A DNA stretch of 64,000 nt, from NCBI RefSeq assembly GCF_900625105.1, contig NZ_UYYD01000010.1, positions 1 to 64,000 of the forward strand, read 5' to 3'. The notes under the pieces are model-generated. The model did not search any database. It was not told the DNA's origin and saw nothing but the letters and a program-made list of their open reading frames with translations. The position numbers and the translations under genes are program-made. Positions 371 through 2,853 of this stretch are shown here, piece by piece. This DNA comes from Agathobaculum sp. Marseille-P7918 (GTDB lineage Bacteria; Bacillota; Clostridia; Oscillospirales; Butyricicoccaceae). Each line of letters begins with the position of its first letter. Position 1 is the first letter of the stretch.

Positions 371-856
371 ATGGATCATGTAACCGAAATCAAGGCCGCT
401 TGCGCGGCAGGTGTGGCTGTGCTGACCGCCCTGTGGGGCTGGTTCGGCTGGGTGATCGTGCTGTTTGTCGCCTGCATGGTGGTAGACTACCTGACGGGCA
501 CAATGGCCGCGATGTACGCGGGCAGCTGGTCGAGCTCTACGGCGTGTAAGGGGATTTTACATAAGCTGGGCTGCATTGTCGTGGTTGCAGTGGCCGGGGC
601 AGCGGATCTGCTGCTCGGCATGATGCTCGCGCACCTGCCAGGCATTACGCTGCCGTTTGAGTATACCGTGCTGATCTGCCCGGTCGTGGTGATCTGGTAC
701 ATCCTGACCGAGCTGGGCAGCATCATCGAAAACGCGGTGGCGTTGGGCGCGCCGTGCCCCAAATGGCTTGCAGGTGTGGTGGACGCAGCTAAGGACGCAG
801 TGGAGGAGACCGGCAGCAAGATCCTGCCGCAGTCGGAGGGGGACGAGGACACATGA
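371..856 (+). CDS. Phage holin family protein
   Basis: A 161-residue membrane protein of the toxin-secretion/phage-lysis holin type (PF05105, holin_4). It has hydrophobic segments near residues 15-45, 60-85 and 95-120, an IVLFVACMVVDYLTG motif typical of the family, and a charged C-terminal tail. The start is the ATG at 371, preceded by AAAGGAG at 355-361; an open frame extends upstream but has no such site. The stop overlaps the endolysin start (ATGA at 853-856), so the two are translationally coupled. The holin would form membrane lesions that release the endolysin. Confidence 0.85.
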   Translation: MDHVTEIKAACAAGVAVLTALWGWFGWVIVLFVACMVVDYLTGTMAAMYAGSWSSSTACKGILHKLGCIVVVAVAGAADLLLGMMLAHLPGITLPFEYTVLICPVVVIWYILTELGSIIENAVALGAPCPKWLAGVVDAAKDAVEETGSKILPQSEGDEDT

Positions 857-2181
857 GCAGTATCCGATGCGACATTTACGACCCGTCCGAGTGGACCATC
901 TGGTTTGCGGCGGCGCCCTACGGCGCGGCCAGTAAGCCCGCCAAGACGCTGAAAAAATGGGCGGCCGAAGAGGGCGCAGATGTGGTGTACAACCTCTGTC
1001 TGTTCAACATGACCGGCTCGGGCAGCGACCAGTACGGCGTCATCAAGGGGCGCACCTTGCAGTATCTGCGCGCGAAGGACGTAGACTGCGGCTATGGTGG
1101 CACGGCTGAGCGCCTGACCGTCAGCCCGGGCAACGTGGTCGCAGGCGTCAAGGTCGCGGTGCGCGACGGCGTGGTGCTGTCCGGGCTGGACAAGTCCACC
1201 TACCGCAGCCGCAACATGATCGGCGAGCTGGCCGACGGGCGCATCATCGTCGTGCAGTCCTCGGACGGCTGCACCGAGGAGCAGGTGGCGCGCTACGCCG
1301 CCGGGCGGTACACGATCGAGCTGCTGTTGGTGCAGGACGCGGGCGGCAGCACCGGCATGTACCGCGTGAATGACGGCTACTTATTCGCCCCCGAGAAGGA
1401 GGGCACGGACGGCAGACCGGTGTGCAGCGTAGTATGTATGAGAAAGAAGAACAAGGAGGGCAAACCTATGGGCAAGAAGAAGGTATTTCTGGGCGTAGGC
1501 CACGGCGGCAGCGACCCCGGCGCGGTTGGCTATCTGGTCGAGAAGGATGTGAACTTTACGATGGCGACCGCCTGCCGCGATTTCCTGACGGCCTACGGCG
1601 TGGACGTCAAGATGAGCCGCACTAAGGACGAGGACGACACGGTCAATCAGGAGGTCGCGGAATGCAACGCCTATGCGCCCGATCTGGCCGTGGACATTCA
1701 CAACAACTCGGGCGGCGGCGACGGCTTCGAGGTGTACCACACGATCGGCGGCGGCACGGGCAAGACGCTCGCGCAGAACATCGAAAAGCATGTCAAGGCC
1801 ATGGGCCAGAACAGCCGCGGCGTCAAGACGCGGCAGGGCAATAATGGCGACTACTACGCGTTCATCCGCGAGACGGTTGCGCCCGCCGTGATCTGCGAGG
1901 GCGTGTTTGTCGATACCAAGGCGGATGCTGCGCAGGCCGACACGCTGGCCGAGCAGCAGGCGTTCGGCGTCGCGTACGCCAAGGGTATCCTTGATACACT
2001 CGGTCTGGCGTATGATGAGCCGGAGGAAGCGCCGGAAGAGGCGGAGACCGACGAAGAGGTGCAGGCGGCCATCACCAAGGTGCAGCAAACGGCTGGCCTT
2101 GCTGCGGAGACCATGCAGTATCTGCTGGCGTATGAGTACGGTACGGATCTGGTGATTAAGCTCGCGAACGCAATGAAATAA
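853..2181 (+). CDS. Two-domain endolysin: NAGPA-like domain plus N-acetylmuramoyl-L-alanine amidase
   Basis: The protein has 442 residues. Residues 1-200 resemble the phosphodiester glycosidase (NAGPA, PF09992) fold, with YRSRNMIGELADGR and VQDAGGSTGMY matching its conserved segments. Residues about 208-385 are an Amidase_3 domain: GVGHGGSDPGAVG (zinc His), DIHNNSGGGDGFEVY (second His) and VICEGVFVD (catalytic Glu). An acidic linker and a short helical tail follow. It would cleave the amide bond between muramic acid and the stem peptide at lysis. A strong ribosome-binding site and ATG lie in frame at the domain border, so a free amidase could also be made. It overlaps the holin by four bases. 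Confidence 0.85.
   Translation: MSSIRCDIYDPSEWTIWFAAAPYGAASKPAKTLKKWAAEEGADVVYNLCLFNMTGSGSDQYGVIKGRTLQYLRAKDVDCGYGGTAERLTVSPGNVVAGVKVAVRDGVVLSGLDKSTYRSRNMIGELADGRIIVVQSSDGCTEEQVARYAAGRYTIELLLVQDAGGSTGMYRVNDGYLFAPEKEGTDGRPVCSVVCMRKKNKEGKPMGKKKVFLGVGHGGSDPGAVGYLVEKDVNFTMATACRDFLTAYGVDVKMSRTKDEDDTVNQEVAECNAYAPDLAVDIHNNSGGGDGFEVYHTIGGGTGKTLAQNIEKHVKAMGQNSRGVKTRQGNNGDYYAFIRETVAPAVICEGVFVDTKADAAQADTLAEQQAFGVAYAKGILDTLGLAYDEPEEAPEEAETDEEVQAAITKVQQTAGLAAETMQYLLAYEYGTDLVIKLANAMK
1453..1470 (+). promoter_or_regulatory. Internal ribosome-binding site and ATG inside the endolysin gene
   Basis: AAGGAGGG at 1453-1460 lies seven bases before an in-frame ATG at 1468, which is codon 206. Translation from here would give MGKKKVFLGVGHGG and onward, i.e. 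exactly the amidase domain. This is either a dual-start endolysin or the scar of two fused genes. Confidence 0.55.
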
Positions 2182-2203: not shown

Positions 2204-2233
2204 AAAGCCCGGGGCGTTGTGCCTCGGGCTTTA
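2204..2233 (+). terminator. Terminator after the endolysin gene
   Basis: AAAGCCCGGGGC and GCCTCGGGCTTT form a strong GC-rich stem with a five-base loop, followed by a short T-rich run. It ends the phage late transcript next to the host junction. Confidence 0.8.
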
Positions 2234-2242
2234 TTATCTGTT

Positions 2243-2347
2243 TTAGCAATTAGCACCGCCCAGCTGTGTGATAACGATCTTGGCGGTCTGCGGGTCGGGG
2301 TTTTTGATGTTGACCGGGTATTGCAAGCGTTTATCGTATGACCACAT
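2243..2347 (-). pseudogene. cotJC: 5' fragment of cotJC, cut by the prophage
   Basis: Reading from the ATG at 2347, the first 31 codons give MWSYDKRLQYPVNIK and ITQLGG, the start of the spore-coat manganese-catalase-like protein CotJC, normally about 190 residues. After GGA the frame leaves the family pattern (usually GGxDGE), reads N-C, and stops at 2243. The start overlaps the cotJB stop (TAATG), as expected in a cotJABC operon. The missing part is presumably on the far side of the prophage. If the phage excises precisely the gene would be restored; if not, it is dead. Confidence 0.8.
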
Positions 2348-2604
2348 TAGTTATCCTCTCCTTCCCACGGCCACGGGTCGTCGATCCAGCGCCAGCTGCC
2401 GACACGGGTATCCACCTCGCGGGCGGTCAGCGGGCCGAAGGCGTCCTCGTATTCCGCTGCGGCCTTGTCGAAAGCGGTGCGCATTTTGCTGTAATAGGCC
2501 AGCGCCGCGGTGTTCTGCGGGTGGCCGTCGAGGTACTCGATCACATCCACGAGCGCAAAATCATACATGCGCACGCGGCTGAGCAGTTTTTCACGTTCGG
2601 TCAT
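2347..2604 (-). CDS. cotJB: Spore coat protein CotJB
   Basis: An 85-residue protein with the CotJB pattern: MTEREKLL at the start, a DFALVDVIEYLDGHP segment, a helical middle (YYSKMRTAFDKAAAEYE), FGPLTA, and a C-terminal WRWIDDPWPWEGE. CotJB works with CotJA and CotJC in assembly of the inner spore coat. The start codon overlaps the cotJA stop (ATGA at 2601-2604) and its stop overlaps the cotJC start, so the three are one translationally coupled unit. Its presence indicates a spore-forming host. Confidence 0.92.
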   Translation of the reverse strand: MTEREKLLSRVRMYDFALVDVIEYLDGHPQNTAALAYYSKMRTAFDKAAAEYEDAFGPLTAREVDTRVGSWRWIDDPWPWEGEDN

Positions 2605-2798
2605 TGGGGAACGGCCTCCTCTCCGAGGAAAGGCTTGTCGAGTGCCGGAAAGATGGTGCCGCGGCTGAAGGCCAGCGCGGGTTCATACGGCGTATCAAAG
2701 CTTTGCGCCGGCACGAATGCCATGGCAAGCGAAAGCAGACGGGGATCGATGCTGTCCGCAGGCAGCGCCTGATCGCCCGAAGGGTTGGTCGTATTCAT
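2601..2798 (-). CDS. cotJA: Spore coat-associated protein CotJA
   Basis: A 65-residue protein with the CotJA core: LAMAFVPAQSF, PYEPALAFSRGTIFP, and the end ALDKPFLGEE. It is the first gene of the cotJABC operon. A good ribosome-binding site (AAGGAG) precedes its ATG. Upstream, CATACACT at 2853-2846 on the minus strand fits the -10 of sporulation sigma E, the factor that drives cotJ in Bacillus subtilis. It acts in the mother cell during coat assembly. Confidence 0.92.
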   Translation of the reverse strand: MNTTNPSGDQALPADSIDPRLLSLAMAFVPAQSFDTPYEPALAFSRGTIFPALDKPFLGEEAVPQ

Positions 2799-2845: not shown

Positions 2846-2853
2846 AGTGTATG
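2846..2853 (-). promoter_or_regulatory. Sigma-E-like -10 element of the cotJ operon
   Basis: The minus strand reads CATACACT, an exact fit to the sigma E -10 consensus (CATACAnT), about 48 bases before the cotJA start. A good -35 is not evident, so the call rests on the -10 and the known regulation of cotJ. Confidence 0.45.

Follow-up and report, generated by a model that had tools for sequence, protein, structure and literature searches.

Organization of the cotJ locus

The window, i.e. the whole stretch of DNA analysed here (64,000 nucleotides), covers the opening 64 kb of contig C12 in the draft genome of Agathobaculum sp. Marseille-P7918 (36 contigs, 99% complete), hereafter the source genome. 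Near its left end, phage lysis genes meet the spore-coat genes cotJA, cotJB and cotJC, and the following features were identified:

371..856, plus strand: phage holin gene (lysis; PF05105, E 1.8e-32)
853..2181, plus strand: phage N-acetylmuramoyl-L-alanine amidase gene (lysis; PF01520, E 3.5e-32)
about 2204..2233, plus strand: terminator-like hairpin 3' of the amidase gene, read by eye from the sequence
2243..2347, minus strand: 5' part of cotJC, an ORF of 34 aa with 31 family codons followed by three phage-side codons and a stop
2347..2604, minus strand: cotJB, intact (PF12652, E 9e-26)
2601..2798, minus strand: cotJA, intact (PF11007, E 2.5e-15)

The holin and amidase genes run from the left up to the cotJC fragment. 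In a profile search, residues 1-32 of this fragment (ORF 2347..2243) align to positions 1-32 of the Mn_catalase family PF05067 (E 5e-8), and its ATG overlaps the stop codon of cotJB in the sequence TAATG. The initial annotation had described cotJA and cotJB as intact and cotJC, joined to cotJB by the TAATG overlap, as cut after about 31 family codons exactly where the phage lysis module ends, beside a phage terminator. This description is borne out: both neighbouring genes match their Pfam families, the overlap is present, the 31 codons give way to three foreign codons and a stop, the holin and amidase genes abut the fragment, and the hairpin-like sequence read by eye lies between them and the break.

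The 3' part of cotJC and the att sites

Since the window starts at base 1 of C12, the search for the other prophage end was extended to the remaining contigs. In the source genome PF05067 matches twice, at the window fragment (profile positions 1-32) and at C23:244780-245259 (profile positions 24-197); no further match and no whole cotJC was found by profile search in this 99% complete draft. The second match is the 3' part of cotJC, which begins at the GGxDGE segment, as had been predicted, and lies directly downstream of the gene for a 487-aa large serine recombinase (LSR). The recombinase, which answers to the integrase expected beside the 3' part, carries Resolvase, Recombinase and zinc-ribbon domains and belongs to PHROG 95 (integrase). 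Two features in the window have counterparts on C23:

2255..2260, minus strand: core GGCGGT, found also at C23:245236-245241 in the same reading phase
2235..2251, minus strand: phage-side att arm AATTGCTAAAACAGATA, pairing with the integrase-side arm on C23 at 16 of 17 positions

The core falls inside the stretch (near 2245-2262) in which a shared sequence had been anticipated. The window junction reads CAG CTG GGC GGT and the C23 junction CAA TTT GGC GGT CCG GAC GGC; at both, GGCGGT makes up two whole in-phase codons. When the flanks are joined across the core, they give one open frame for a 217-aa CotJC, with no stop. When the phage sides are joined, they give the attP TATCTGTTTTTGCAATT-TGGCGGTGCT-AATTGCTAAAACAGATA, whose inverted arms pair at 16 of 17 positions, a value matched by none of 5000 shuffles. 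Nine relatives with an intact gene carry the undisturbed GGnGG site, i.e. an empty attB. The core of the source genome was read from the sequence itself, and the cores of other junctions serve as examples only; automated core finding gave spurious or very short cores at several junctions, the source one included (gapped or over-extended alignments).

The proposal that a prophage splits cotJC thus holds, with the 3' part on C23 behind an LSR and with matching att halves: the element in the source genome splits the gene, and both the split and the recombination machinery are in place. Three outcomes had been named as speaking against it, namely a missing 3' part, a missing core and a complete cotJC elsewhere, and none of them was found. 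C12 and C23 are unjoined in the assembly, so that the evidence linking them is the match of their att halves and the fact that the genome has just one pair of cotJC pieces. Beyond the integrase, C23 continues for 4.2 kb and then ends; this stretch contains an Ltp-type lipoprotein gene, and repressor-like and AbrB-like reading frames were recognised there by eye. DNA 91-95% identical to the start of C12 is present on C14 and C25, and DNA 97-98% identical to the end of C23 on C34 and C22, which probably explains the contig break inside the element. These copies also make it likely that the source genome holds several related prophages; portal genes are found on C22, C30 and C35.

Split cotJC genes in the family, order and class

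PF05067 was matched in 78 of 87 genomes of the same family by profile search. By hand count, cotJC is in pieces in 36 of the 87, about half of the genomes with a cotJC-like match (36 of about 73), and the pieces end at recurrent places; in 29 of the 36, one break or more was seen from both sides. There are four break sites, at residues of about 31 (A), 63 (B), 136 (C) and 176 (D) numbered on the source CotJC, and all fall within conserved motifs. In the 35 genomes that were read closely, 50 sites are occupied, and an LSR lies within 900 bp on the element side in 44 of them (A, 10/11; B, 15/16; C, 15/19; D, 4/4); at the other six no LSR was found within that distance. The count of 50 was reached from 52 by removing two rows with over-extended alignments (site A of G019 and of G029), and it excludes six one-sided site-D ends without an LSR (G022, G023, G044, G047, G050 and G085). 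Two or three sites are split in 11 of the 35 genomes (G001, G005, G006, G011, G023, G028, G029, G033, G044, G045 and G050). G023 may even hold four elements, because LSRs of two lineages face the two sides of its site B. The 5' piece still directly follows cotJB in 30 of 31 cases.

Neighbouring pieces on the same contig are collinear and on one strand in 42 of 44 pairs (22/22 in the family, 20/22 in further genomes of the order), with spacings from 3.1 kb (G252) and 3.5 kb (G247) up to 49 kb (G023) and 52 kb (G001). The two exceptions are G224, with pieces on opposite strands, and G171, with pieces in the wrong order and 675 kb apart; simple excision would not rejoin them, unless these are assembly errors. 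An LSR adjoins the 3' piece in both G224 (L218/L219) and G171 (L116/L117), which are rearranged or misassembled.

In the order sample, 62 of the 65 weak-match genomes outside the family show the same break places by hand count, and they represent 12 further families. Together with 18 family members, at least 80 of the 247 genomes in this sample are split; G099, G182 and G294 were left uncounted, and in G268 the pieces extend to contig edges. In the class sample, clear splits among the matches listed include G331 (on one contig), G413 and G385. The order and class counts are lower bounds. cotJC is a recurrent target at several sites, and some of its elements are small and unlike phages, which goes beyond what the initial annotation foresaw.

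Recombinase lineages, joined attP sites and small elements

In a tree of 61 LSRs, the lineages sort by cotJC site. The LSRs of site C form one clade (14 rows, 100/99), as do those of site D (5 rows, 100/100); those of site B form two clades (7 and 11 rows), and those of site A fall in one clade together with eight viral LSRs. The site-C LSR of G033 is broken into two ORFs. A small protein with no Pfam family is translationally coupled to site-B LSRs (L025:6548-6769, L033, L063, L101 and L103), with six related rows in one cluster and three in another; it may be another candidate factor.

With 13 site-A LSRs as query, 556 genome loci were collected and the best 80 were inspected. A cotJC piece lies at the LSR end in 68 of these best 80 by tblastn (37 with the 3' piece, 31 with the 5' piece), and in five more by reading the DNA (L137, L139, L160, L173 and L177). 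Two others (L188 and L196) carry a joined attP, and the remaining ones are L125 (cotJC 0.9 kb off), L168 and L175 (contig ends), L128 (another gene) and L136. In L128 the site-A-type LSR is followed by an att-like core at about 11437, apparently in a gene other than cotJC, and this is a possible second target. The titles of the site-A loci include Agathobaculum, Butyricicoccus, Intestinibacillus massiliensis, Clostridium methylpentosum DSM 5476, Ruminococcus flavefaciens and Marasmitruncus massiliensis.

Joined palindromic attP sites with a GGnGG core occur in five of 12 loci lacking a cotJC piece (L009, L011, L014, L188 and L196), in viral contigs as well as MAG contigs. Their arms pair at 13-16 of 17 positions, with none of 400 shuffles as good in each case, against only 8-11 in 20 half-site control loci. 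Look-alike sites seen by eye in L118 (bajarodcaudo virus 3, a complete circular phage), L013 and L015 failed the arm-pairing test, and the attP pattern of the source genome had no match in the viral contigs.

Small elements with cargo genes are found too, so not all cotJC elements are phages. The 3.1 kb element of G252 contains an LSR and, as its only other large gene, one for pyrimidine nucleoside phosphorylase (L098:6000-7298); the 4.2 kb element of G011 contains an LSR, a sodium symporter and a RidA-type protein. A [FeFe]-hydrogenase-like gene was found in L018:5366-6889 (G001, site B) and in L034:5922-7445 (G023, site A, where the copy was read in a near-identical sequence); it is cargo of two elements that occupy different cotJC sites and have unrelated LSRs.

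Constraint on the separated pieces

The pieces were analysed in 62 genomes (50 split, 9 intact and three in neither class: G043, G007 and G048). Their 11,057 codons include one stop, at codon 204 of G084, which is at the natural end. Paralogues, loci L003 and L044 and pairs outside dS 0.1-2.0 were omitted from the omega analysis. Past the first break, the median omega is 0.114 for split-split pairs (443 pairs) and 0.088 for split-intact pairs (201); for intact-intact pairs it is 0.085 (three overlapping stretches, 77 values), so that split pairs lie somewhat above intact ones. Because the downstream codons are untranslatable as CotJC without excision, the constraint favours a restored gene. 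Repeated recent entry of elements could yield the same picture as long maintenance of the split. Taken together, constraint and recurrence strongly suggest that cotJC is restored.

Sporulation genes and a candidate excision factor

SpoIVA was found in 69 of the 87 family genomes, the source genome among them. Of the 36 split genomes 33 have it, and the completeness of the other three is 78-90%. The source genome also has a SpoIIID gene, and its matches to sigma-K (TIGR02846) are all below the family cut-off. Two further features bear on regulation:

2846..2853, minus strand: CATACACT upstream of cotJA, sigma-E -10-like, read from the sequence
C23:249843-250157: candidate recombination directionality factor (RDF), a small phage protein of the source genome

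We take CATACACT to resemble the -10 box of sigma-E promoters. Proteins related to the candidate RDF, collected by an iterated search that did not fully converge, have about 55-125 residues (one 212-residue row is an over-long reading frame) and gave nothing above chance in Pfam and PHROG, or weak matches to phrog_26314 (function unknown). Of 96 site-A loci, 43 have the gene upstream of the LSR; among the 52 loci whose upstream DNA extends to 5 kb or more, the number is 37. In 44 of 44 rows it is on the strand opposite the LSR. In two small elements, those of G230 (4.0 kb) and G023 (7.3 kb), the gene adjoins the LSR.

The strings used in the search for regulatory boxes are what we take to be the sigma-E and SpoIIID consensus sequences; the papers searched show logos. 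ATACANT occurs within 60 bases upstream of nine of 38 candidate RDF genes (0.66 expected; 0 of 300 shuffles). An exact SpoIIID-type box, WWRRACARNY, precedes 11 of the 38 against 34 of 747 control ORFs (Fisher 2e-6), and CATACAMT precedes four of the 38 against one of 747 (Fisher 2e-5); these p values are overstated, as the upstream regions come from related phages and are not independent, and many of the control ORFs are not genes. None of 43 regions upstream of the candidate RDF has a two-box sigma-E pattern, so that enrichment there is confined to the -10-like and SpoIIID-like boxes, and sigma-E or sigma-K patterns were not enriched before the LSR. Upstream of the candidate RDF in the source genome is AATACACT, one letter off, with no exact SpoIIID box. 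The sigma-E/SpoIIID control that we consider here is modelled on the RDF of the skin element in Clostridioides difficile, which, according to the available excerpts of the report, is controlled by sigma-E and SpoIIID (PMC5025042).

Proposed mechanism and alternative explanations

In the mechanism we propose, the LSR of a temperate phage would insert the phage into cotJC at the conserved GGnGG site at codons 30-31, and precise exit through attL x attR would restore the gene. By analogy, we infer that excision would take place in the mother cell of a sporulating bacterium, the cell that requires cotJABC; loss of the element there would be of no cost to the element's lineage. The trigger may be the small phage protein as a candidate RDF under sigma-E/SpoIIID-type control. 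It is likely, judging from the gene pieces, att sites and constraint, that LSR elements sit in cotJC and leave it in the mother cell with restoration of the gene. A broader reading seems to us evenly balanced: cotJC would be a dock throughout the Clostridia for a guild of LSRs borne by phages and minimal elements, with one site per lineage, and the mother cell would rejoin up to four or five pieces through element factors sensing sigma-E/SpoIIID. In such a dock, insertion would cost nothing, since the cell in which excision takes place is going to die in any case.

Ordinary lysogeny would have the element exit only at induction (DNA damage), and the repair of cotJC would be a by-product unlinked to sporulation. 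The joined attP sites in viral contigs agree with this, as do the lysis and repressor genes that the source element has like an ordinary phage. However, elements of 3-8 kb without phage genes occupy the sites too, constraint persists on the pieces, and boxes of mother-cell type lie upstream of the candidate RDF; we therefore regard a link to induction alone as unlikely.

cotJC might also be a dispensable landing site, the gene being dead after insertion, the split lineages young and further elements free to enter. Insertions are indeed common and turning over, several genomes have two or three splits, the LSR of G033 is broken, and a distant paralogue (31-34% identity; G005, G033, G046 and G050) might substitute for CotJC. 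Yet with about half of the family genomes that have a cotJC-like match split, decayed copies would be expected to be common, whereas the pieces are without internal stops and their omega past the first break is far below 1; in addition, most lineages, including the source genome, have no second full-length PF05067 match. A decayed gene was set aside on account of the stop-free pieces and the low omega, and a dispensable site appears quite improbable. The survey fits a restorable rather than a dead gene.

It is very improbable that the 3' part is made alone, as a shortened working enzyme that needs no rejoining. An in-frame TTG after the integrase does open the 3' ORF, but by eye no ribosome-binding site precedes it, and on that ground an independent start was set aside; moreover, the LSR abuts the 5' part instead in 31 of the best 80 loci, and splits at codons 63, 136 and 176 would leave fragments of 40-75 residues with the conserved motifs separated. 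An assembly or binning artefact is hardly credible and was set aside, for although many of the genomes are MAGs, the source contigs break inside the phage and G224 and G171 are odd, the same breaks occur in isolates (Butyricicoccus sp. Marseille-Q5471 and Intestinibacillus massiliensis) and in single-contig genomes (G005, G252 and G331).

Comparison with known rearrangements

The rearrangement of sporulation genes by skin, SP-beta, gin and yin is already established, and the comparisons below follow the available excerpts of the papers cited. In Bacillus subtilis, the SP-beta prophage lies in spsM, and its precise excision in sporulation restores the gene (PMC4191935). Like it, the cotJC phages are temperate, have a serine recombinase and occupy a gene for the spore envelope (PMC4191935); the target gene differs, and SP-beta is one element in one place, whereas many phages and small elements use four places in cotJC. 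With skin in sigK of B. subtilis and C. difficile they share a serine recombinase and inverted-repeat att sites, although the target of skin is a sigma factor gene (PMC5025042). The gin element in gerE of Bacillus cereus likewise indicates that an intervening element need not be a phage, and there the RDF GirX works with the recombinase GirC (PMC5595907); however, gin is a single 28.6 kb element with three recombinases, and the smallest cotJC elements have 3-4 kb and one recombinase. The yin element in yabG of Clostridium botulinum is also a prophage-like insertion in a sporulation gene, but again in another target (PMC10747680). What is shared with the skin, SP-beta and gin type is a cut sporulation gene, a recombinase in the element, a core that restores the frame and the lack of a second whole gene, and what is shared with phages that use large serine integrases is an attP with inverted arms (16/17) around a short core.

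Developmental genes split by several elements are also found in heterocyst-forming cyanobacteria, where nifD of Rivularia sp. PCC 7116 has four elements and more than one is present in 10 of 87 genes (PMC4874684); there, however, the cell is a terminal heterocyst, and the recombinases and genes are others (PMC4874684). We found no report of cotJC as an insertion target in the open-access literature, and the available part of a survey of LSR targets does not name it (PMC10083194). The prophage phi027 of C. difficile is described, in the excerpt at hand, as adjoining a CotJC homologue (PMC11222575).

The known rearrangements of sporulation genes are few, with one element per gene. If the reading proposed here is true, developmental DNA rearrangement would be routine in the gut microbiota, with a coat gene split at four places by separate recombinase lineages in no fewer than a third of the genomes sampled from this order of gut bacteria, and it would account for the truncated cotJC genes called by annotation pipelines. 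It would also provide a collection of recombinases, each with its matching att sites, and would make the reading of the host's developmental state by phages testable across many related phages.
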